Shown here piece by piece: positions 2,114-21,221 of a stretch of DNA of 22,869 nucleotides. Positions within the stretch are counted from its first letter, which is position 1. Every line of letters starts with the position of its first letter. A program made the translations under genes and the position numbers. The stretch covers positions 1 to 22,869 of IMG/VR virus record IMGVR_UViG_3300027749_000493; one strand, given 5' to 3'. The notes below the pieces were generated by a model. The model searched no databases and had not been told where the DNA came from. It saw only the letters and a list, made by a program, of their open reading frames with translations. The stretch is from a virus.

Positions 2114-4180
2114 TTATTTTTTTACTACAATATTAGATTGCCATCTATGCCTGCAATAGGGTGTAATCAATCCGTCCTTGTGTCTCCAAAAACCTCCGCG
2201 TCTATCAAATACACTATAGCCTAGCCTTTCGCTTATTTTTTCAATATCCTTTCGAGAATAGAACCTATTAAGTTGCATCATCTTTGCACAAAATGGACGG
2301 TTACGGCTGTCTTCTGGTCCATCATACGAGTACATAATTTTCACCGTATCAAGTGGCGTTTTTTTAATCGGCGGTATATCTGCCGTTGGCGGTACTTTAC
2401 GTATTACTTGTACATCTTCGCCTATCGTTGTAGTGGTTGCCTCAATATAGCCTTTTGCTTCAAATTGTTTTAATTTGCTTTCAACAAAGCTAACTGACTG
2501 CCCAATATTTTTTGCAATAACCTCAGGCGTAATTTTAGGGTCTTTTTTTAGTAAGTCTAGTATTTTACTTTCAGTAATAGTTAAATCTGTAGCCGTTTTA
2601 AATGCCTCTTGTATATATATATCTTCATCATCTATAGCATCTCCCAACTGTGAAAAACCTACCTTCTTTGATTTTAAAATATCGTAGTCAATTTTACTTT
2701 CACCGCAACTATCGAACATTCCTATTATGGTACTTTCTTGCTCTTCAAATGCCATAGCCTGCATTGGCTGTATGCCTAATAAATCATTAATGTCACTTTC
2801 GGCTAATCCATAACCTGTACGTAACATTGCCTTAGCCGCAACCTCTGTTAGCTGACCTTTAGAATATTGGCGAATAATTCGCATAACTTGCTGATGCTGC
2901 TTTGCAGTTAGGTTGCGAATAGCATCGTTTGACTGTGGCAAATCAGATACAGCCTGAACTTCATTACTAGGTTTTATTGCTATTGGCGAGCTTGATGTTA
3001 AGCTACCAATATTTTGTAGCTCCCACATTTCTTTTGGTATGCCCAATTTTTCAAATACAAATTCCTTTGGTAAAGCATTTATTACGTCCTTAACATCGAA
3101 CTGAATACCTATCGGGTCTATTTGCGATAACTCATACTTCTGTCCTGCCCAAATAGAGCAACCCAGTATAAAGTTAAACTCTTTAGATGTACTTATTGCC
3201 TTAGGCTTTGCATAGGTATTTACAAATGCTTCATAGCTTGTTTTAAGCTCTGTTATACCGCCTAATTGCCCCTCTGTTTTTATACCAAATAACATTGGAG
3301 ATGTTACTTTGTGACCGCTAAAAATCTCTTGTTGGCACAAATTATTAAGCCCGTCCATGTGCTTATCTAAATCACTCGCTGATAAGTCATCTATTTGAAC
3401 TGCTTTATTGTTAGCGTTCCCGTTGAACACCATAAAGAACTTGCCCGCATTTTCGCTGCCTGAAAACTTCTTTTCTAGTCGCGCCTCAATCTCTCTTTTT
3501 TTGTCATCTGTTGGTTCGCCTGTGAAAAATTGTATCATTTTTGAAGGCATCATGCCATTTCTGATACAGCTTAAATAGTACTTACTAATTTCAATATCGG
3601 TTTCAATGTAATTATTTGAACCAATATACATTGGAAGTGGGTAATATTTAACGTTTGGTCTATACTCAGCGAAAGAGTATATTTGTGAGCCAACTGGATT
3701 ATAGTGGTTAAACTCCTCAATATATCTTTCATCTTGCTTGTTTAGTAAATCCCAATTCTCTTTATAATAATAACCTTTACTTTTACCTTTTCGTAAGCTA
3801 GTATAATCTACATGATATATTTCGCATACTTGACCACGTTGATTATATATTAATTCTACATACCAACCTCCAAATATTTCCCTATCTAGTATGCATTTTT
3901 TAGCTATATCGTTTAGGCTTTCTTCAAGTCTATTAACAATAAAGTCTCCATTTTCAAATCCCCCTCCAAATATGTAGTCTGCCTTTCCAGTAACTATAGC
4001 GTTATGCTTACTTGACTTATTGAATAGATATGTTAAATATTGAGGGTAATCGTTTTTCTCTCCATATTTAATATAGTCCTTATTTCGCTCTTCTTTAAAT
4101 CTTGGCACTCTGCTGTCCGCAAATTTTAAAACTAAAAGTTCAGGTGATGCGCCGCTATCTTTAATTATATTACTATCCAT
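2114..4180 (-). CDS. Portal protein with C-terminal winged-helix-like and MuF-like segments
   Basis: The portal is the dodecameric ring at the capsid vertex through which the terminase pumps DNA. The first ~400 residues fit a Bacteroidota phage portal: YGEKNDYPQYLTYLFNKSSK near the N-terminus, AIVTGKADYIFGGGF, then QQEIFSGHKVTSPMLFGI in the region that usually precedes the portal crown. Two extra parts follow. Residues ~533-580 look like a winged helix (TESKILDLLKKDPKITPEVI, then SKLKQFEAKGYIEA). Residues ~614-688 carry Cys and His in PFCAKMMQLNRFYSRKDI and end with PYCRHRWQS, like the C-terminus of MuF-type minor head proteins. I chose ATG 4180 (MDSNIIKD, 688 aa): the frame is open back to 4231, but that start would overlap the upstream gene by 59 bases, against 8 bases here. 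Confidence 0.86.
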   Translation of the reverse strand: MDSNIIKDSGASPELLVLKFADSRVPRFKEERNKDYIKYGEKNDYPQYLTYLFNKSSKHNAIVTGKADYIFGGGFENGDFIVNRLEESLNDIAKKCILDREIFGGWYVELIYNQRGQVCEIYHVDYTSLRKGKSKGYYYKENWDLLNKQDERYIEEFNHYNPVGSQIYSFAEYRPNVKYYPLPMYIGSNNYIETDIEISKYYLSCIRNGMMPSKMIQFFTGEPTDDKKREIEARLEKKFSGSENAGKFFMVFNGNANNKAVQIDDLSASDLDKHMDGLNNLCQQEIFSGHKVTSPMLFGIKTEGQLGGITELKTSYEAFVNTYAKPKAISTSKEFNFILGCSIWAGQKYELSQIDPIGIQFDVKDVINALPKEFVFEKLGIPKEMWELQNIGSLTSSSPIAIKPSNEVQAVSDLPQSNDAIRNLTAKQHQQVMRIIRQYSKGQLTEVAAKAMLRTGYGLAESDINDLLGIQPMQAMAFEEQESTIIGMFDSCGESKIDYDILKSKKVGFSQLGDAIDDEDIYIQEAFKTATDLTITESKILDLLKKDPKITPEVIAKNIGQSVSFVESKLKQFEAKGYIEATTTTIGEDVQVIRKVPPTADIPPIKKTPLDTVKIMYSYDGPEDSRNRPFCAKMMQLNRFYSRKDIEKISERLGYSVFDRRGGFWRHKDGLITPYCRHRWQSNIVVKK

Positions 4181-4532
4181 TGTAAGTCTTAAATGATGTT
4201 GAAGTATTGTATTTTGTAAAGGCAAAATCAATACCTCTATTTAATATAAGTTTGCCAAATTCTAAAATGATACCTGTTTGTTGCTCTGTTACAACGTAAT
4301 GCCACTCGCCTACTTGGTAGCTGCCAAATATTGATATAGGGCTTATCTCAAATTCATTGTATCTATTCTGGTAATTACTAAAGTCATCATCTGGTATTTT
4401 ACTAAATGATACTACGTCTTTAGTTACCGTATGAGTAAAGTTAAACTCATAGATAGGCTCTGGAATAGTTGTTAATTCCGTTAGTGTTAATATAATCCTT
4501 TCGCTTGCACTATCTATCTTAAACTCTAACAT
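4173..4532 (-). CDS. Small structural protein of unknown role, upstream of portal
   Basis: This 119-residue protein is beta-rich: MLEFKIDSASERIILTLTEL, then FNFTHTVTKDVVSFSKIPDD, SYQVGEWHYVVTEQQTG and ILEFGKLILNRG. Proteins of this style occur among the structural genes of Bacteroidota phages, where a GEWHY-like motif in a small beta domain recurs, but I cannot name the family. It is the first gene after the strong terminator at 4573-4604, so it probably heads the portal transcript, and its 3' end overlaps the portal start by 8 bases. The location suggests a head decoration, neck or tail-related component. No promoter matching the Bacteroidota consensus could be picked out in the A/T-rich 4533-4572 stretch. 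Confidence 0.68.
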   Translation of the reverse strand: MLEFKIDSASERIILTLTELTTIPEPIYEFNFTHTVTKDVVSFSKIPDDDFSNYQNRYNEFEISPISIFGSYQVGEWHYVVTEQQTGIILEFGKLILNRGIDFAFTKYNTSTSFKTYNG

Positions 4533-5188: not shown

Positions 5189-6163
5189 TTAAACTAATTT
5201 GAATGATACGACTTGGTCAGGGAATGCAACATTTACACCTTGTTTAAATTGAGCTTTAAAGCGGATGTAATCTTTAAATTGGTCTTGCATCATAACGAAT
5301 GTATCTTCTTCATTCTCCATATCTACTCCTAAGTAGAAGTTAGGCATGTAAGTAGAGAATAACCTGTTTGTACCGTCCAAACCGTGAACCGCTGTAAGTT
5401 TGTAGTTTGTACCTGGTATGATAACCACACCATTTGCAGCACTTACTTCACTTCCTTCTGGTGCAAAGTTGAATAAATTTTGGTCTGTAAATGCATTTAT
5501 AAATTTGTTAAACACATCCCACCCACAGAATATACGAATATCATCTCTACCTGTTACATCCGCTGGTAATGCTAACCACATTGCATTTATAACCGATTTA
5601 ACGTTTGCAATAGTAATTCCCACTGCTGTTGTGATAGCCGTTCCTATACCGCCTAGAATACCGTTAGCAGTTACGGCTACTGTACTTGCATCAATTAATT
5701 TGATTAAGCCATCGAACTTATTAAGGTTAGCGTTAACGCTTGACAAATCACCCTGCCATAATGCAATCTCATCTTGTTTTGCAATTGTTGCCGCTTTTAA
5801 ATCGGTGTATTCTTTCTCGAAAGCTAAGGTATCTTCGTAAGAACCTTTAACCATCGACTTACTTAGAAAAGTTCTACGCAAATCCTTTACACAAATATCT
5901 TCTACTACTGCAATGTTACCTACTGTAACTTGTCTTTGAGTAATCGAAGTAGTGCCACTAGATACTCTAGTACATCCTGCTCCACTTTGAAAAATTGCAT
6001 CGGTTGCTAGAACATTAATTTGTTCAGCGAATTTAATGCCCGTTAATACATTACCTTCTTCGCTAATTAAAGAGGCCGTTCTTGAACCAAATAAACTACG
6101 AGCTACGAGTAAATTTTCGTTTTCAATAACGTAACTTACAAGGGTTGATACATCAAATGCCAT
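5189..6163 (-). CDS. Major capsid protein
   Basis: The 324-residue protein starts MAFDVSTLVSYVIENENLL and continues VARSLFGSRTASLISEEG, the N-terminal pattern of Bacteroidota phage major capsid proteins that probably take the HK97 fold. Downstream features fit: VVEDICVKDLRRTFLSKSM, a long helix-like stretch (EDTLAFEKEYTDLKAATIAK) that could be the spine helix, and a C-terminus with VMMQDQFKDYIRFKAQFKQG before VAFPDQVVSFKLV. The length suits an HK97-type capsid subunit without a long delta domain. It directly follows the scaffold-like gene and precedes a terminator, as expected of a very abundant virion protein. The start is preceded by A-rich sequence with no Shine-Dalgarno motif, like other strong Bacteroidota starts. 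Confidence 0.9.
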   Translation of the reverse strand: MAFDVSTLVSYVIENENLLVARSLFGSRTASLISEEGNVLTGIKFAEQINVLATDAIFQSGAGCTRVSSGTTSITQRQVTVGNIAVVEDICVKDLRRTFLSKSMVKGSYEDTLAFEKEYTDLKAATIAKQDEIALWQGDLSSVNANLNKFDGLIKLIDASTVAVTANGILGGIGTAITTAVGITIANVKSVINAMWLALPADVTGRDDIRIFCGWDVFNKFINAFTDQNLFNFAPEGSEVSAANGVVIIPGTNYKLTAVHGLDGTNRLFSTYMPNFYLGVDMENEEDTFVMMQDQFKDYIRFKAQFKQGVNVAFPDQVVSFKLV

Positions 6164-6184: not shown

Positions 6185-6889
6185 TTAATTAATTTTTTTA
6201 CGTTTTTTTGCTTCTGAAATAGCCTCAGCCATTTTCTGCAACTGTGCTTCTTTTCTAGAATTAAATCCTTCTTTTTTATTTTCAGGTAGCGTTGCTGGTA
6301 TGGATGTAGGTACATTTGCAACCATTTCAACAAGCTCTAATACTTGCTTGCTAAATGCTTCTTGATTTGTTAATTTAGCTTCTAGTTCTAAAACTTTAGC
6401 CTTTAATGTATCTTGTGAGGCATACATTTGTTTCATGCTTTCTGGCGTAACAGCCGCAGGTTTAACTGGTACATCTGTAGTTGTAGGTGGTGGCGGAACC
6501 ATGCTTTCCTTTGCTGCTTCAATATCCACATCAGGTAATGGTTGACCTGCTCCCGTTCCGCTAGGGTTTGTAATATTTGTTATGCAACCTCCAGTAACAG
6601 TAAACCCGAAATCAGTACCCGTAACGTTGTAAGTGCCATCAGGATAAGGTGTTCCCATTGACTCGTCAGTAAATACATAATCATTAGCGTCAAGCCCTGC
6701 AATGCTATCATCTGAAATATCAGTATAAATTGGCATACCGCCGTCTACTGGATAGCCAACTAAATTAGCTGTCATTGCGGCTGGTGCGATATTATCCTTA
6801 GCTGCTAATGGTGCTGGACTTGGTGCTGGTGGCGGCGCTGTGTTAAATAGTGCTTTAATTGCTAGTAATTTCTCTTTAATACTCGACAT
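6185..6889 (-). CDS. Capsid scaffold-like protein
   Basis: The 234-residue protein has the layout of a scaffold. A Pro/Ala-rich linker follows a short N-terminal helix (TAPPPAPSPAPLAAKDN). Next comes a beta-rich middle with repeating turns (GGMPIYTDISDDSIAG, TPYPDGTYNVTGTDFGFTVT). A second Pro-rich linker (VPPPPTTTDVPVKPAAV) leads to a coiled-coil-like stretch (~160-200: QDTLKAKVLELEAKLTNQ) and a basic C-terminus (SEAKKRKKIN). Scaffolds guide capsid assembly through coiled-coil and basic ends and are then removed by the prohead protease. The gene lies between the protease and the major capsid protein, the standard order. The DGTY-type middle repeats occur in many Bacteroidota phage scaffold-like proteins. 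Confidence 0.78.
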   Translation of the reverse strand: MSSIKEKLLAIKALFNTAPPPAPSPAPLAAKDNIAPAAMTANLVGYPVDGGMPIYTDISDDSIAGLDANDYVFTDESMGTPYPDGTYNVTGTDFGFTVTGGCITNITNPSGTGAGQPLPDVDIEAAKESMVPPPPTTTDVPVKPAAVTPESMKQMYASQDTLKAKVLELEAKLTNQEAFSKQVLELVEMVANVPTSIPATLPENKKEGFNSRKEAQLQKMAEAISEAKKRKKIN

Positions 6890-6916: not shown

Positions 6917-8263
6917 TTAGTCATTAAAATCTGTTTCACTTAAAATCGCCTCAATTAAACTTTGCGCTTGTTCTGGCGAATACTTTTTACTTGTTGTAGA
7001 TTGGATAGGTATGTAGTTAAATATTCCTTCTACTGAAAAACCCCTAAGCTCTCCTGTCTTAACACGCTGCCAAACTGCATCATTATTTACTTTAGCTGAA
7101 ATAAACCAGCTACCATTTGCACAATCTTCAAATCCTTCTGGTGGATTAATCCCTAATTCTGTATTAGATATAAAAGAATTAAATATTGTTACATCACTAA
7201 CTGCTTCGGTTTCCTCATGAAATAAATTAAAGTTATTCATGAACCCTTTAGCCGAAAATTTTTCGACAATACATTGAATAGATGCAGCATCGAATATTAC
7301 ATAGTACTCGCCTAATACATCATCCTTACGATATATAGGCATATCAGCAATCATAGCTGCTCCGCTTATAATCTTCTTTTCTTCATTAATAGCAAATCGC
7401 ATTGCATTAGATATAAACTTTTGACCTATTCCATTTGGTAGCATTTTAATAACGTCGGCATTATCATCGTAATGTTTGGCAATATCTAATTCTTTTATTT
7501 TAGATACTTTGCCATTAATGCTGCCCGTTGCATATACATTTTTAGAAGGTATTTTAAGCTCTTTTGCAGTTGTCAATAACTCATCTTTACTATTTCGCGC
7601 TGAAATAATATAAACATCATTCCCTTTGTCTAATTCTTTTTGTGCTAATTCTTTACCCTTAGAGGTGATTAATGTATTGTCATAATCAAATGATATTTTT
7701 TCAAAAACGGCAAAGTCATCCTTATTAATTTTGCTTTCGCAATATCTAAGCATTGATTCGCCACCCCATAGAAGGTAGCTAATTGTTCCACACGACTCTG
7801 TATCTTTTGGATTGTAATATTCCGAAGCCCTACTAAGATATGAAAATGTTCTTTTTATTGTTTCTTTTGAAAGCGATTCGCCGTTGGCTATCTGTTGCGC
7901 TCTTACTTTTCCTACTTGTGTTGCGCACTTATTATTAATTTTTTCATTTAGCTTTATCCCACGAGCAGCATCATCCTTTGCAGATTGTGGGTAGTCACTA
8001 TAACTATCACTTGCAAAGTGCTGTTCCCACATAGTATTGCATATTGCAATTGCTTGTTCTTGGTCTTTGCCTTCGTCAATTATGTACGATATACAACGCG
8101 GTATAAAAGCATCTTTGCTTTCTTTTGTATTTGGTTCTACAAATTTATTGAATGCTAAAAAGTTTTTTTCTATAGCTGGTTTATCTACTAATGCAATGTA
8201 GTTTACTTCTACATCAGACATTAAATCTGGATTAATTACAGCTTTATAAATAGGGTATTCCAT
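6917..8263 (-). CDS. XkdF-type prohead protease interrupted by inserted modules including a HAD-like domain
   Basis: This 448-residue protein has an XkdF-type protease split in two. Residues 1-44 (YPIYKAVINPDL, VNYIALVDKPAIEKNF) match its start; from 288 onward (MRFAINEEKKIISGAAMIAD, YYVIFDAASIQCIVEKF) it resumes, with H349 in FHEETEAVSD and S410 in RGFSVEG as the likely catalytic pair. Between them lie three parts. Residues ~50-80 have a Cys-containing helical motif (FIPRCISYIIDEGKDQEQAI). Residues ~88-180 resemble a module from phage head proteins (YPQSAKDDAARGIKLN, SYLLWGGESMLRYC). Residues ~188-280 look like a HAD phosphatase: D193-Y-D195-N-T197 (FDYDNTLI) and HYDDNADVI around D266-D267. 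It sits just before the scaffold gene. The protease presumably matures capsid or scaffold; the purpose of the insertion is unknown. The start codon lies in a strong hairpin. Confidence 0.83.
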   Translation of the reverse strand: MEYPIYKAVINPDLMSDVEVNYIALVDKPAIEKNFLAFNKFVEPNTKESKDAFIPRCISYIIDEGKDQEQAIAICNTMWEQHFASDSYSDYPQSAKDDAARGIKLNEKINNKCATQVGKVRAQQIANGESLSKETIKRTFSYLSRASEYYNPKDTESCGTISYLLWGGESMLRYCESKINKDDFAVFEKISFDYDNTLITSKGKELAQKELDKGNDVYIISARNSKDELLTTAKELKIPSKNVYATGSINGKVSKIKELDIAKHYDDNADVIKMLPNGIGQKFISNAMRFAINEEKKIISGAAMIADMPIYRKDDVLGEYYVIFDAASIQCIVEKFSAKGFMNNFNLFHEETEAVSDVTIFNSFISNTELGINPPEGFEDCANGSWFISAKVNNDAVWQRVKTGELRGFSVEGIFNYIPIQSTTSKKYSPEQAQSLIEAILSETDFND

Positions 8264-16017: not shown

Positions 16018-17274
16018 TTACCACACACTCGGGCCATTACCTTGCATATTAGCAAACTTAAATGCTTCACGAGCTAATGCTAATGCACATACATCGTCAT
16101 CATGGTCACCTTCTGGAGCTGAGTAGCTTATTCCCATTCTAGTATAAATTGTTTCGTATTTTTCAAGTTGACTTCTTAGCCTACCAGTTCCATTAATTAT
16201 ATCCCCGTCGTTAGCTATTACTATTTTTCTTTGGTGAAAGTCAAGCTCTAATCCCTCCATCAATCTTTGCTTGCTGCCTTGTGTAAATATATATCCTTCT
16301 AAATTATTTTTAAATGTTTTTAATTGGTCTACTACTACGTCTCCTAATCCAGTAGCATCTACTCTAGTAGTAACATCAGGTAATGACTTTATCTTATCAA
16401 TAGTGATTTGCCAATTCTTTTTATTCCAAGTATCATAATAACTTTGTGTTCCCCATTGATCGAAACCTATTACTGATACATAATCTGATTTTTTACCTAA
16501 GTCGATTCCAAAACAAACAGTTGGATTTGTAGATAGTGAAGGCTGGCAACTTAATTCAATAAACTTTAATCCAAATGGATGACTTCCACTTTCGCTTGGT
16601 TCCGCTAAATATAATTCAGCAAATACGCTAGGGGGTAAATCGTTTTTTGCGCTTTCAATTTCTTCAATAAATGGTCGCCCGTCTTTAGTTAGCATTCCAG
16701 CATTTGCAGCATCATAAGCAGTTATTTTAAAAAATTGATACTCGCCACCTACCTCAATGTTCTTTGTTGACTTTGCCGTATTAGCTAACTTATTGCCCCA
16801 ATTTTTGTTATCTTTCGCGTTACCTATAAACTTACATTGCCCTGCTGTTGATGTTAGCGTAGAACGCAACGCAAACCATGCTGATTCTCTAGCACGAGTA
16901 AATTCATCAAAAACGGCTGCATACACGTCGTCTCCATATAGATTATCTGGTTTTTCTGCCGTCTTAAATTCAATCTTTGCCCCCGTTATTAATGTAATAA
17001 TAAGATTAGTTTCATTGGCTTTGAATAGGTTTTTATCTGTAATTTGCACCTTCATTCTATTGTAGGCTATTTTAGCCTGCCCAAATGTTGGGGCTATCCA
17101 CCAAACAGAATGATTTGCTTTACAATCTAATGCTTTCTCGAATAACCAAACTATATGACTAGCAGTTTTACCGCACTTAGTAGCCGCTAACGTTACCGTA
17201 TATCTAGCTTTGCAATCTAGTATTGCGGTTTGATATGGGTAAAGAAATGGTCGTGTATAGTTTATTATTGGCAT
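16018..17274 (-). CDS. terL: Terminase large subunit
   Basis: The 418-residue motor packages DNA into the prohead. The ATPase domain has a Walker A at 30-37 (AATKCGKT), in which the usual Gly after the lead is replaced (ATKCGKT rather than GxGxxGKT), and a Walker B at D123-E124 (VYAAVFDEF). The nuclease domain has the RNase H-like acidic residues in CFGIDLGKKSDY (D258), RVDATGLGDVV (D306) and GDHDDDVCAL (D390-D394). The length is typical of the compact terminases of this group. The ATG overlaps the stop of the upstream glycosyltransferase-methyltransferase gene (TAATG), so translation is coupled to it. The enzyme should work with the small subunit encoded 4.5 kb upstream at 21750-22088. Confidence 0.95.
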   Translation of the reverse strand: MPIINYTRPFLYPYQTAILDCKARYTVTLAATKCGKTASHIVWLFEKALDCKANHSVWWIAPTFGQAKIAYNRMKVQITDKNLFKANETNLIITLITGAKIEFKTAEKPDNLYGDDVYAAVFDEFTRARESAWFALRSTLTSTAGQCKFIGNAKDNKNWGNKLANTAKSTKNIEVGGEYQFFKITAYDAANAGMLTKDGRPFIEEIESAKNDLPPSVFAELYLAEPSESGSHPFGLKFIELSCQPSLSTNPTVCFGIDLGKKSDYVSVIGFDQWGTQSYYDTWNKKNWQITIDKIKSLPDVTTRVDATGLGDVVVDQLKTFKNNLEGYIFTQGSKQRLMEGLELDFHQRKIVIANDGDIINGTGRLRSQLEKYETIYTRMGISYSAPEGDHDDDVCALALAREAFKFANMQGNGPSVW

Positions 17275-18575
17275 TATTTCACCCTTTTAAAAACCCTATT
17301 ATGAACTACGCTAAATACTTCCTCAAACATATCATTTGGCAATAAGCTATCTACTGCATCACTTACCTCTACGTGACCGCAAAACATCCCATCTGGTAAA
17401 TTGTACTTTATTGCGCTGTCATCTATAACCATGTAACCGCCTATATTTACAAGTGGCGAATAGTTAATTATATCTTTTCTGCATTCGTCGTATGTGTGAC
17501 CGCCGTCTATATAAAGTAAGTCGTATGTTTTTTTGCTTGCTTCTTTGATTATATTTTGGTCACTCGAAAAACCTTTTAATAAAGTTGGTTGCTTCAACTT
17601 AAACTTTTCGTGTAAAAATTTTACATCGGCTGCATAGTCACCATCCCAATATCCTCCTGCATTTGTTAATGGGCTTATTCCCGTCACATTAGCATCTTTG
17701 CTTAGTAGTTTTATTGCACCTAATATTTGACCTCGAAAAACCCCTATTTCTAAGAAATTAAACTTTTGCGGAATTTCATCCACTAATAGTTTCCACAACC
17801 AAATAAAAGAGCGTTCACCGAAACCAAATACATTTTGCTCAATAAAGTCGCGATATTCTTTTAGTGGTCGCGTTTCGTTTACTTTCTTGCAAAATGTGTC
17901 GTGTATGTACTTATGACTTTCGGGAGTGTCGCGCCAAATATTTACATAATCATTTAATTTCATTGGTAGCATATTATAAATGTATGACATATCTGTTCCG
18001 CCGTTACCATGAAAAAAGATTGCATCTTTGTTTATTTGTTCTGGTGTACAAAATGCTATTGATTGAAATATATTGCAATCATAATCTAGTTGCAATTTAT
18101 ATCTATTACTTAAAAACAAATCTGTTAAGTTAGCTTGGTCGTTATCGCTGTCGGCTATTGGATTAGCCTCAAACATTTCTATAAACAAGGGGACTGAAAC
18201 AAAGCAAAGTCCACCATTAAGATAAGGAAAGTTTGCGCTTTGATTAGGATATAAAATAGCTTTTTCGGGATAGGGGTAGCAGCCTTTTTCTGCATTAAAT
18301 ATCATTACATCTTTATTCTCAATCCTATGCAGTGCATCTTGCATTGTGTCATTTACAAATACATCATAGGCATCAGATATGAATAAGTGAGTGCAGTCTG
18401 TTTTTTTTGCATATTCATAAGCATTTCGCATCTTAGAACCGTATGCAATATAGTTGTGACTTAGTATTTCGTAATCCCAACCATACGCATCTAACGAACG
18501 TTTAAATTGTTTAAATCCTTCATGTTCTAAGTTAGTAGCGGTTGCTATTAGTTTACATTTAAACGTCTGATTCAT
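17274..18575 (-). CDS. PLOD-like glycosyltransferase fused to a SAM-dependent methyltransferase
   Basis: The 433-residue protein has two parts. Residues ~1-190 resemble the glycosyltransferase domain of procollagen lysyl hydroxylases (PLOD): HEGFKQFKRSLDAYGWDYEI, then LFISDAYDVFVND (around residue 66, possibly the metal-binding DxxD-type site) and FPYLNGGLCFVS (around 115). After ~250 residues comes a class I methyltransferase of the Methyltransf_24 type: FNFLEIGVFRGQILGA (motif I, ~272), YDLLYIDGGHTYDECRKDI (~350) and NIGGYMVIDDSAIKYNL. This suggests transfer of a sugar and a methyl group by one chain, possibly to make a methylated glycan. It closes the glycosyltransferase cassette, overlaps the upstream gene by 17 bases and is coupled to the terminase. 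The target is unknown. Confidence 0.8.
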   Translation of the reverse strand: MNQTFKCKLIATATNLEHEGFKQFKRSLDAYGWDYEILSHNYIAYGSKMRNAYEYAKKTDCTHLFISDAYDVFVNDTMQDALHRIENKDVMIFNAEKGCYPYPEKAILYPNQSANFPYLNGGLCFVSVPLFIEMFEANPIADSDNDQANLTDLFLSNRYKLQLDYDCNIFQSIAFCTPEQINKDAIFFHGNGGTDMSYIYNMLPMKLNDYVNIWRDTPESHKYIHDTFCKKVNETRPLKEYRDFIEQNVFGFGERSFIWLWKLLVDEIPQKFNFLEIGVFRGQILGAIKLLSKDANVTGISPLTNAGGYWDGDYAADVKFLHEKFKLKQPTLLKGFSSDQNIIKEASKKTYDLLYIDGGHTYDECRKDIINYSPLVNIGGYMVIDDSAIKYNLPDGMFCGHVEVSDAVDSLLPNDMFEEVFSVVHNRVFKRVK

Positions 18576-18807
18576 AACCTTTTATTTGATTTAATACCAT
18601 TTCTTTTAAATTATTAAAATCTACTTCAATAAAATCTTTTGCATAAAACGCAGTAAATTCTATTTCTTGCACAGACGTATAAAATACTAATACATGATAA
18701 TCTTGCATCCTTTCAAATAATATTTTACTTGTATCATTAATAACCTCTTTTGGCATGTTAAATGGCACTTGAACTATAAATATTGGTTTTGAATTAATCT
18801 GCTCCAT
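18559..18807 (-). CDS. Small hypothetical protein
   Basis: This is an 82-residue frame, MEQINSKPIFIVQVPFNMPK, with an alternating strand/helix pattern (PIFIVQVPF, DYHVLVFYTSVQEIEFTAF) and a C-terminal helix. It overlaps the GT2 gene at its start (14 bases) and the next gene at its end (17 bases). The tight packing and the fact that it fills the gap support a real gene. No family was recognised; its small alpha/beta form and position suggest an accessory of the glycosyltransferase cassette, but nothing in the sequence shows a function. Confidence 0.7.
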   Translation of the reverse strand: MEQINSKPIFIVQVPFNMPKEVINDTSKILFERMQDYHVLVFYTSVQEIEFTAFYAKDFIEVDFNNLKEMVLNQIKGYESDV

Positions 18808-19576
18808 AATAAATTGGTTTAATTCCGTTATACATATCCCTAACTAATTGTATTATCCTTTGTGTTTGTTCGCCGCTATGACGTTCTTTCCATCCTTGAT
18901 ATTCTGTCGCGCCCGTGTCTATGTGGTCTATTTCAATATGTGGTAAAAAGCAACTATAAAAACCTGCTAAGTGTGTTCTGTGCGACATCAATACGTCGTC
19001 ATATCCGTATAAACTCGTTTGATATAAGTACCCTACTTTGTCAAGTAAAGCGGCTGAGTGCATCACACATGTTCCTATAATGTGTTTTGCTTCCTCTACT
19101 ATTAACCACTTTTCACCTGGTACATGTGGCAACATTTTTAAAGTACTTTTAAAGTCATTGTTTTTGTGTGCAGGATGTTCCCAGCAATCTTTTCTTTTTA
19201 ATCCGACTTGACCTATTTTCGGGTCGCGTCTTATTGCTTCTTCCATTTCATCAACCCAACCGCTTGAATGTATAACTACATCGTTATCCATTTTAATGCA
19301 GTGTTCACCTTCATTGCGTAGTTTCCATGCTTGGTTTATTGCTCTTGCTGTGCCTATGTTTTCGGGTAGTGTTATTACATGTATTCTCTTTGTATTGTAG
19401 TATGATGCAAATTGCTTTAAAAAGTCTTTAGTTTCTTGGCAGCTATTATTGTCCACTATAATTAAACGGTGCTTAATTAAGTCAACCGTATTAATTACAC
19501 TTTCTAATGTTTTTCTAGTATATTCCGTTCTTTTATTTTCGATTGTATCGAAACAAGCCATTGCGATAAGTGCCAT
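18794..19576 (-). CDS. Family 2 (GT2-type) glycosyltransferase
   Basis: The 260-residue enzyme has the GT-A fold features of family 2: an N-terminal strand and helix (MALIAMACFDTIENKRTEYT), RLIIVDNNSCQETKDFL, ENIGTARAINQAWKLRN and the metal-binding D97-N-D99 in HCIKMDNDVVIHSSGW. The C-terminal part has GTCVMHSAALLDKVGYLY and SLYGYDDVLMSHRTHLAG, where DD is the usual site of the catalytic acidic residue, and ends HIDTGATEYQGWKERH. It should transfer a sugar from a nucleotide-sugar donor. No membrane segment is visible, so it acts in the cytoplasm, perhaps on virion proteins, DNA or a glycan precursor. It starts 1 base after the small Cys-motif gene and overlaps the next gene by 14 bases. Confidence 0.88.
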   Translation of the reverse strand: MALIAMACFDTIENKRTEYTRKTLESVINTVDLIKHRLIIVDNNSCQETKDFLKQFASYYNTKRIHVITLPENIGTARAINQAWKLRNEGEHCIKMDNDVVIHSSGWVDEMEEAIRRDPKIGQVGLKRKDCWEHPAHKNNDFKSTLKMLPHVPGEKWLIVEEAKHIIGTCVMHSAALLDKVGYLYQTSLYGYDDVLMSHRTHLAGFYSCFLPHIEIDHIDTGATEYQGWKERHSGEQTQRIIQLVRDMYNGIKPIYYGAD

Positions 19577-19577
19577 T

Positions 19578-19811
19578 CTATTTATTATTTTTTAACCATT
19601 CATCAAATAACCTATAACATAGTCGTAACATATCCATACAGCATTGGGGACACCACAAATCTGCTGAATATCCTTTTATCCAATATTCGCCTATAATTAG
19701 CTGCATTTTGCTTCGAGTGTTACCGTCTAAGTATCTTACTTGTCCTGCATTAACTAGCATATTGTAGTGGTGCCTATTTGATTCTAAGAAGTCTATGTCT
19801 TGCTGTTTCAT
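19578..19811 (-). CDS. Small protein with a CxxC motif
   Basis: The 77-residue protein MKQQDIDFLESNRHHYNMLV has the motif LWCPQCCMDMLRLCYRLFDE near its C-terminus: C..CC and one more Cys, suitable for zinc or another metal. An N-terminal helix with HH is followed by a mixed stretch (RYLDGNTRSKMQLIIGEYW). Similar small proteins occur in Bacteroidota phage operons beside glycosyltransferases, but I cannot name a family. It overlaps the upstream gene by 4 bases (ATGA) and precedes the GT2 gene by 1 base, so it is translationally linked to the cassette. Confidence 0.72.
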   Translation of the reverse strand: MKQQDIDFLESNRHHYNMLVNAGQVRYLDGNTRSKMQLIIGEYWIKGYSADLWCPQCCMDMLRLCYRLFDEWLKNNK

Positions 19812-20026
19812 AATAAATAAATTGATTTAGCTGCTTCAATAATACAATGTAAGCAAACCCCTGTTGAATCATAGCCCCCTTGATTTGATGCTATTACCAT
19901 TGCTGGCAATTTATCATTTATTACATGAGGGCAAATATTTTTTTCATCACTATCTAAATCGTAATCTGTTTCAATTAAAAAATTTGCATTATCCCAAAAA
20001 CCGCCTACTTTTATTTCGTGTTTCAT
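19808..20026 (-). CDS. Small protein with paired Cys motifs
   Basis: The 72-residue protein has KNICPHVINDKLP in its middle and GVCLHCIIEAAKS near the end, so Cys/His pairs (CPH, CLHC) that could bind a metal. The remaining sequence is short strands and loops (GGFWDNANFLIETDYDLD). It overlaps the glycosyltransferase stop and the next gene start by 4 bases each (ATGA), so translation of the three is coupled. No family was recognised. The pairing with the next small Cys-rich protein suggests related roles, but this is inference. Confidence 0.72.
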   Translation of the reverse strand: MKHEIKVGGFWDNANFLIETDYDLDSDEKNICPHVINDKLPAMVIASNQGGYDSTGVCLHCIIEAAKSIYLL

Positions 20027-21006
20027 AATTCAAATATTTGTTTCCTTAAATTGTTTATCTTCTCAAAGTTAAAATGTTTGTCGCAATACTCCTTTAATTC
20101 TTTGCCACGTTCTTTTTGAGCTTTTTTACTTTCAACTAAAGTCTTTATATGCTTTACCCATTCTTTAGGATTATTTGCGTAAAGTATTGGTAAATCTAAG
20201 TAAGGGTTAACCTTTGATGCAATTACTGGCAGCCCTAAATTAGCTGCCTCTAATACTTTTAAATTAGATTTGTATTGATTAAAATTACTATCTAATAAAG
20301 GCACTAAACATATATCTGCTTCCTTATACGCTTCGTAGTAATTAGTCACTTGTTGCGCTTCTATTATCATTAGTGATAACATCCTACCACTCGTGTAATT
20401 ATGAACCATTGACTGCCATTCTTCGCCTCCGTTATACCCTGCCATAACCATTTTGCATTGCGGTAGCTTATAGTATATTTCATTAGCAACTGGTTTTAAT
20501 ATCGCAATATCTTTTCTATGAGTTTCGGATCCTTGCCAAAATAAACGAGGTTGTTTACTTGGTGTTCGCTCTATATCAAACTGCCCTTGTTTCGGTATTG
20601 CGTTTGGTAGTATATGTACATTACTATTATAAGGTTTTATTTTGGGTGCAAGTCTATCATTTGTAGTTGTGATAATATCTGAAAATTGCAAACACTCTAT
20701 TTGACTTTCAGCAAAATTATTATCTAAGTAAGATTGATATAAAATGTGGTGTTCGTCTAAATGCCAATAGTCATCAACATCGCAAACTATTTTAAAGCCA
20801 TATTTTAGCTTTAATTCTAATAGCTTACTCATTGCCTCATTTGGTATAATTCTATTGAATACAACTACATCGCAGCCCTTTTCAAAGTCTTTTTCTTCTA
20901 GGTTGTTTGTTACATAAACATCAACGTCTTTCATTAATAACAATGGAACTAATATGCGATGATAACTTACTCCTGTAACTCCTTGAATGTAGCCGATTAT
21001 TCTCAT
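20023..21006 (-). CDS. GT4-type glycosyltransferase
   Basis: From ATG 21006 the 327-residue protein begins MRIIGYIQGVTGVSYHRILV, a common start of GT-B fold enzymes acting with nucleotide sugars. It has DVDDYWHLDEHH in the first domain, HILPNAIPKQGQF near the domain junction, RLFWQGSETHRKDI, and the C-terminal donor-binding signature YKSNLKVLEAANLGLPVIAS with E253, followed by a KEWVKHIKTLVES helix. These features suit family 4. The start is chosen because this ATG overlaps the upstream stop (TAATG); the frame extends to 21132, but that part lies in the preceding gene and has no resemblance to the family. It is probably cytoplasmic and part of the cassette with the GT2 and PLOD-like enzymes. 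Confidence 0.86.
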   Translation of the reverse strand: MRIIGYIQGVTGVSYHRILVPLLLMKDVDVYVTNNLEEKDFEKGCDVVVFNRIIPNEAMSKLLELKLKYGFKIVCDVDDYWHLDEHHILYQSYLDNNFAESQIECLQFSDIITTTNDRLAPKIKPYNSNVHILPNAIPKQGQFDIERTPSKQPRLFWQGSETHRKDIAILKPVANEIYYKLPQCKMVMAGYNGGEEWQSMVHNYTSGRMLSLMIIEAQQVTNYYEAYKEADICLVPLLDSNFNQYKSNLKVLEAANLGLPVIASKVNPYLDLPILYANNPKEWVKHIKTLVESKKAQKERGKELKEYCDKHFNFEKINNLRKQIFEL

Positions 21007-21221
21007 TATAAATATCTCATTTGTATTGCTGAAAATATTGCACCAACAAAAACGCCGATAGGTAAGTATAAAATACCTGCCCAGCCATAGCTTATACACC
21101 CTATTATTAGGGCTATCCAACCGGTTAAACACTTAGTGCAATTAAATGGCTTAATAGGTATTAAATTAATAAACTCAACCCAACAAAAAGATATTGCTAA
21201 ACTTGTAATGATAATTCGCAC
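21006..21221 (-). CDS. Small membrane protein with CxxC motif
   Basis: The 71-residue protein has a first hydrophobic segment (MRIIITSLAISFCWVEF), a CxxC loop (IPIKPFNCTKCLTGW) and a second long hydrophobic stretch (IALIIGCISYGWAGILYLPI, then VFVGAIFSAI), so two to three membrane helices. The F-N-C-T-K-C-L-T-G-W pattern resembles small membrane proteins of the DUF1360 style, seen in phages and bacteria, with unknown role. The gene starts inside the sigma-like gene (25-base overlap) and its stop overlaps the glycosyltransferase start (TAATG). The site suggests an accessory to the cassette, perhaps in membrane tethering, but a holin-like role cannot be excluded. Confidence 0.72.
   Translation of the reverse strand: MRIIITSLAISFCWVEFINLIPIKPFNCTKCLTGWIALIIGCISYGWAGILYLPIGVFVGAIFSAIQMRYL

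Follow-up and report, generated by a model that had tools for sequence, protein, structure and literature searches.

The linker between the two halves of an XkdF-type prohead protease is a recurrent and fast-changing insertion site for several kinds of modules. In the window, i.e. the whole stretch of 22,869 nucleotides analysed here (IMG/VR virus record IMGVR_UViG_3300027749_000493), three of them (module A, module B, and a capless HAD domain) occupy about 245 residues between the protease halves. This arrangement is beyond chance, as it recurs in dozens of independent contigs. We assign a probability of about one half to our preferred explanation, namely that the protease is a carrier that would bring the putative HAD phosphatase together with A and B into the procapsid; its activity, delivery, and substrate, as well as any cleavage that frees the modules, are inferred. 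Sequences of this kind are already in UniProt, where related proteins of uncultured phages are named ‘Phage-like element PBSX protein, XkdF’ or ‘HAD-like domain containing protein’; what is new, as far as the open-access literature shows, is the recurrent and fast-changing insertion bay. No description of HAD inserts in prohead proteases, of XkdF inserts, or of DUF5824 was found in the open-access literature searched.

Two halves of one protease

The gene is a minus-strand open reading frame running from position 8263 to 6917 of the window and encoding 448 aa, exactly as located in a preliminary description of this DNA (Table 1). Judged by its sequence, it is a prohead protease of the Peptidase_S78_2 (XkdF) type with a predicted role in the cleavage of head proteins. 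Pfam PF14550 matches residues 294-414 (E 3.8e-10, 40.3 bits vs. a cut-off of 24), PHROG 24921 matches residues 291-432 (E 4e-28), and several head maturation protease PHROGs match as well, while a direct sequence search with the whole protein against solved structures gave no match. The preliminary description had proposed an XkdF-type protease that starts at residues 1-44, resumes at 288, and carries H349 and S410. These profile matches bear it out, its numbering of both residues is right, and the two are found in 100% of 151 distinct protease cores. Residues 1-40 and 289 onwards adjoin in uninterrupted relatives, and from this contiguity the two halves are read as a single protease and not as parts of different proteins. 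The first gene of Nonlabens phage P12024L (PF14550) resembles the window protein in its His/Ser core, N-terminal element, and position in the head cluster, but it has only a short linker where the window protein holds its inserted residues.

Table 1. Features of the protease gene and its downstream neighbours in the window (positions of the window; residues of the protease).
Feature	Position	Strand	Remarks
XkdF-type prohead protease gene with inserted modules	6917..8263	-	448 aa; Pfam, PHROG
N-terminal element, residues 1-40	8144..8263	-	V26, P29, A30, I31, F38 conserved
Module A, residues 41-84	8012..8143	-	two helices; invariant C57 and C75
Module B, residues 87-182	7718..8005	-	all-helical; conserved C113 and C158; W166-G-G motif
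Capless HAD domain, residues 185-284	7412..7711	-	D193, D195, S221, K252, D266
Protease catalytic core, residues 289-418	7010..7399	-	holds H349 and S410
Scaffold-like gene, next downstream of the protease	6185..6889	-	weak PHROG match, E 0.04
Major capsid-like protein gene, same cluster	5189..6163	-	PHROG

The protease gene belongs to a head gene cluster, where it is followed by genes for a scaffold-like and a major capsid-like protein and, further downstream, by that for the portal. The scaffold-like product is likely the substrate of the protease, given its position and its weak PHROG match. The portal (2114-4231, minus strand) is extended at its C-terminus, and this extension contains both a winged helix-turn-helix (PF13412, residues 551-597) and a CRHRW module. 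Elsewhere in the window, three glycosyltransferase genes (17274-21132, minus strand; PF25342 with methyltransferase PF13578, PF00535, and PF13692) are flanked on one side by an HTH gene resembling a terminase small subunit (21750) and on the other by the gene of the large terminase (16018). The host of the phage is probably a member of the Bacteroidota, because one relative was found in a Bacteroidetes MAG and the nearest isolate phages infect Nonlabens/Persicivirga. This MAG is the only clear record among cellular genomes, next to two weak partial ones.

Relatives were taken from IMG/VR and are almost all metagenomic contigs, many of them incomplete; L-numbers are the labels of their records. 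They were annotated with five profiles for parts of the window protein, i.e. PN (residues 1-40), A (41-84), B (87-182), HAD (185-284), and PC (289-418). Two scans with the protease core as query yielded 145 distinct proteins with both halves, and the 104 among them that are plain PN-PC with a short linker do not amount to a census, since such scans retain the closest relatives of the protein used as query. Of the other 41, 40 have an insert at the PN-PC linker and one is a PN-PC protein fused to a scaffold part.

Exchangeable modules in the linker

Between PN and PC, the modules occur in many orders: A-HAD, A-B, B, A, HAD, A-B-HAD (the window), and A-HAD-B, and further B-A-HAD, HAD-A, B-HAD-A, and B-A. 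Other inserts found at this site are a Cys-rich module (L018, L023, L280, L289), DUF3721 (above the cut-off in L048, just below it in L234), DUF5824 (L207), and a stretch matching the C-terminal part of portals (L048, L193, L234). The latter, as found in L048 and others, corresponds to the CRHRW module at the end of the window portal. The largest insert belongs to a 770 aa protein (L234, 2324-4633, plus strand), where B, A, a DUF3721-like stretch, and a portal-type CRHRW module add up to about 587 residues between PN and PC. The preliminary description regarded a phosphatase-like domain inside a maturation protease as no ordinary design. The interruption by a HAD domain is real, but it concerns recurrent, optional inserts and not one odd protein.

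How fast the linker changes is best seen in close relatives. Five proteins with PC identities of 91-97.5% to each other's reference have no insert (L117), B (L196), A-B (L204), DUF5824-B (L207, its N-terminus cut by the contig end), or A-HAD-B (L189). On the downstream side of the insert, the contigs of L117 and L189 share 91.6% identity across 2,476 bp, and on its upstream side 90.9% across 208 bp. In L016 and L030, this gene differs by a single clean insertion that contains B and is ~102 codons long, between flanks of 84-89% nucleotide identity. In linkers, a polar residue followed by Phe is frequent, an impression without statistics from which we claim no recurrent cleavage motif at module borders.

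The Cys-helix motif (A) and the head-protein module (B) pointed out in the preliminary description are each found in other phage proteins as well. In 66 of 85 distinct HAD proteins, A is the recognised module that most closely precedes the HAD domain. B is found at the XkdF C-terminus in 35 distinct proteins and also at the C-terminus of undoubted portals (L208, L229). A fold search for A and B gave no clear relative among solved folds (best Z 4.8). Their Cys pairs (C57/C75 in A, C113/C158 in B) are kept at 97-100% in relatives, with a predicted intracellular or capsid setting. B was also seen in isolate phages. A 975-codon gene of Roseobacter phage CRP-821 (L009, 3974-6898), annotated as major capsid protein, opens with B followed by a stretch that looks DUF5824-like by eye, and is possibly a protease-capsid fusion. 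In Vibrio phage K459 (L010, 3941-4717), a gene named “DNA methyltransferase” consists of B and then a part resembling the XkdF protease core; this name is probably wrong, because PHROG 1530, which bears the same name, matches the protease core of the window too.

The HAD domain inside and outside the protease

All four HAD motifs are present in the window protein: I (DxDxT/V), II (S221), III (K252), and IV (D266). Across 71 distinct HAD domains, D193, D195, K252, and D266 are invariant, S221 is kept in 99%, and position 197 is T in 96% and T or V in 99-100%. From the preliminary description of a HAD-like core, D193, D195, T197, and D266 thus hold, but D267 lies outside the signature (Asn in 96% of relatives), and motifs II and III had been overlooked. 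An AlphaFold2 model from a 132-row alignment (pLDDT 86, pTM 0.48) has an alternating strand-helix Rossmannoid core at residues 189-282, the very feature whose absence would have spoken against a HAD-like domain, and its combination of a high pLDDT and a low pTM is consistent with domains joined by flexible linkers. The domain appears capless, because only single helices are predicted at the C1 and C2 cap insertion places. The best structural matches, both with automatic names only, are the BFVD/UniProt entries A0A6J7WUA4 (335 aa, uncultured Caudovirales phage, named XkdF; E 3.8e-41) and A0A6J5MPA4 (142 aa, “HAD-like domain containing protein”, uncultured Caudovirales phage; E 2e-12), which look like additional members of the same protease and HAD sets. 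Part of the query was also matched by a BFVD entry that bears the name ‘Zeta toxin domain’.

Fold comparison with VIA-align gave Z 11.0 over 101 residues to the phosphatase part of T4 polynucleotide kinase and 10.6 to Pnkp1, next to 11.8 for phosphoserine phosphatase and 11.9 for universal stress proteins. The latter have the general Rossmann layout in common with HAD but not its chemistry, so the fold match names no substrate, and scores on the predicted model do not tell HAD subtypes apart from other proteins of Rossmann fold. Neither Pfam nor NCBIfam yielded a HAD model match, and matches to HAD-type sequences in PHROGs and the PDB are weak. The assignment therefore combines conserved motifs and predicted fold, and the phosphatase activity is putative. 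The domain is under purifying selection: pairwise comparison of the HAD copies within the protease gives dN/dS of 0.04-0.30, with a median of 0.17 as against 0.12 for the protease core. These are rough values because many pairs are near saturation at synonymous sites.

The same domain also exists in trans, with catalytic residues invariant in both cis and trans copies. The free-standing genes (47 A-HAD and two A-HAD-B) all precede the large terminase gene by 277-1964 bp and share its strand (49/49), in L058 with a GP3-type small terminase in between. Nineteen of 21 records with a free A-HAD gene have an XkdF core elsewhere, none with HAD inside, and most of these XkdF ORFs are insert-free (about 194-217 aa). 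In another arrangement, the protease gene is uninterrupted and its end is overlapped by an ORF with HAD alone (L051, L056, L057, L063, L065, L067, L068, and the Bacteroidetes MAG L274). Conversely, no second HAD copy was found in 12 records with HAD inside the protease, several of which are short contigs. Among phages picked by the protease core or by B, HAD is absent in 29/30 and, in a second set, in 16/22, the remainder of which consists of four with HAD in cis and two in trans. A HAD tree implies seven changes between locations, though it is poorly resolved and compatible with a single origin of each. Thus, HAD is an optional single-copy part, fused or separate, and nearly always in or next to head or packaging genes. 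Flavobacterium elemoviruses, likewise phages of Bacteroidota, encode a stand-alone HAD hydrolase (118 aa ORF) that matches the A-HAD query weakly (33% identity over 55%, E 0.02); here, no annotated protease or terminase adjoins in the stretch shown and no A module was seen.

Proposed roles: carrier or assembly enzyme

In the explanation we prefer, the protease would fold from its two halves, with the modules hanging from a loop as separate domains on flexible linkers. In other phages, prohead proteases become part of the procapsid interior along with the scaffold, and the C-termini of portals point inward. We propose that the modules enter the procapsid as passengers of the protease, which is itself built into it; modules common to protease and portal would therefore share an interior address. 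There, or after ejection with the DNA, HAD might remove phosphate from a macromolecule, with DNA or RNA ends as a first guess. Fusion would not be needed for this, because other phages supply the same domain separately, either in an A-HAD gene close to the terminase or in a HAD-only ORF that overlaps the protease gene. The preliminary description also suggested processing of a modified capsid or scaffold, sensing of a nucleotide, or excision during maturation, each of which is conceivable. The carrier explanation is backed by near-identical protease cores with and without insert and by the many module orders at one site, as well as by the invariant motifs, dN/dS, the predicted fold, the portal-shared modules, and the proximity of HAD to head and packaging genes. 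It is weakened by the absence of HAD from most related phages and by the free A-HAD genes on the terminase side, which fit a packaging or assembly enzyme equally well.

Such an enzyme is the main rival, possible but on balance rather unlikely. HAD would then do its work inside the infected cell while heads are assembled or DNA is packaged, e.g. on DNA termini or a phosphorylated head protein, and would never be delivered, with the fusion serving for placement only. The constant position of free A-HAD just upstream of the terminase, including the case with the small terminase in between, and the HAD-only ORFs overlapping the protease gene agree well with this. However, it leaves the portal-shared modules, several without enzymatic signature, unexplained, and no phosphorylated head protein is known here. 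A polynucleotide 3'-phosphatase of the T4 PNKP type, virion-borne or late, that heals ends damaged by host nucleases would be a specific form of either explanation and not exclusive of them, yet we consider it doubtful. Capless HADs typically act on macromolecules, the HAD core aligns over about 100 residues with the phosphatase domains of T4 polynucleotide kinase (1rc8) and Pnkp1 (4xrp) at Z about 11, and the L002 copy weakly matches a PHROG polynucleotide kinase (E 0.006), although matches to this type by sequence (PHROG 415) lie only at E 0.006-0.15. On the other hand, phosphoserine phosphatase and universal stress proteins score as high, sequence similarity is weak, and the phosphatases in 1rc8 and 4xrp are fused to a kinase. 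A kinase partner that would make up a PNKP was sought and not found, as a PF06414 (Zeta-toxin-type kinase) profile search had no match in 42 of these records and a Walker-A scan of ORFs with A, B, or HAD gave two chance-like matches only.

That the modules merely set size or space, whether through their bulk or through binding to scaffold or capsid, with HAD chemistry as a relic, appears quite improbable. The site does tolerate inserts of very different size and content, but the bare spacer considered in the preliminary description is disfavoured by the invariance of the catalytic residues, by a dN/dS of about 0.04-0.3, and by the fact that proteases most commonly have no insert; moreover, HAD also stands alone. 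An artefact of assembly, frame shift, or ORF calling has a negligible chance. The window is a metagenomic contig, but the same layout is repeated in many independent contigs and the protease is one open frame without stops, so we rejected a mis-joined contig.

MuF and portal proteins are described to carry enzymatic domains (Iyer et al. 2017, PMC5512222); the text of that study does not mention phosphatases, and prohead protease appears only in a reference title. The MuF and portal fusions and polyvalent proteins treated there are likewise interior head proteins with exchangeable extra domains, whereas the carrier here is the maturation protease and the domains are inserted within it. The window protein and its relatives share with them the exchangeable domains on a head protein of presumed interior location; the modules may likewise be present in the virion and delivered to the host. 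Extending the carrier explanation, the linker might be a general cargo bay of environmental phages, a fixed site by way of which interchangeable modules, among them an active phosphatase, would get into the procapsid, be cut loose by the protease, and leave together with the genome. This we put forward as a speculative and unlikely generalisation. If true, the maturation protease would stand next to MuF and portal as another kind of carrier for virion effectors.

In these phages, entire domains are gained and lost at a single point of a maturation protease whose active site is retained. Natural pairs with and without insert that are otherwise >90% identical make the role of each module testable. 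If the modules are delivered, searches for virion-borne effectors would have to include proteases among the carriers, and unnamed families (A, B, DUF3721, DUF5824, and the CRHRW module) would gain a testable place of action.
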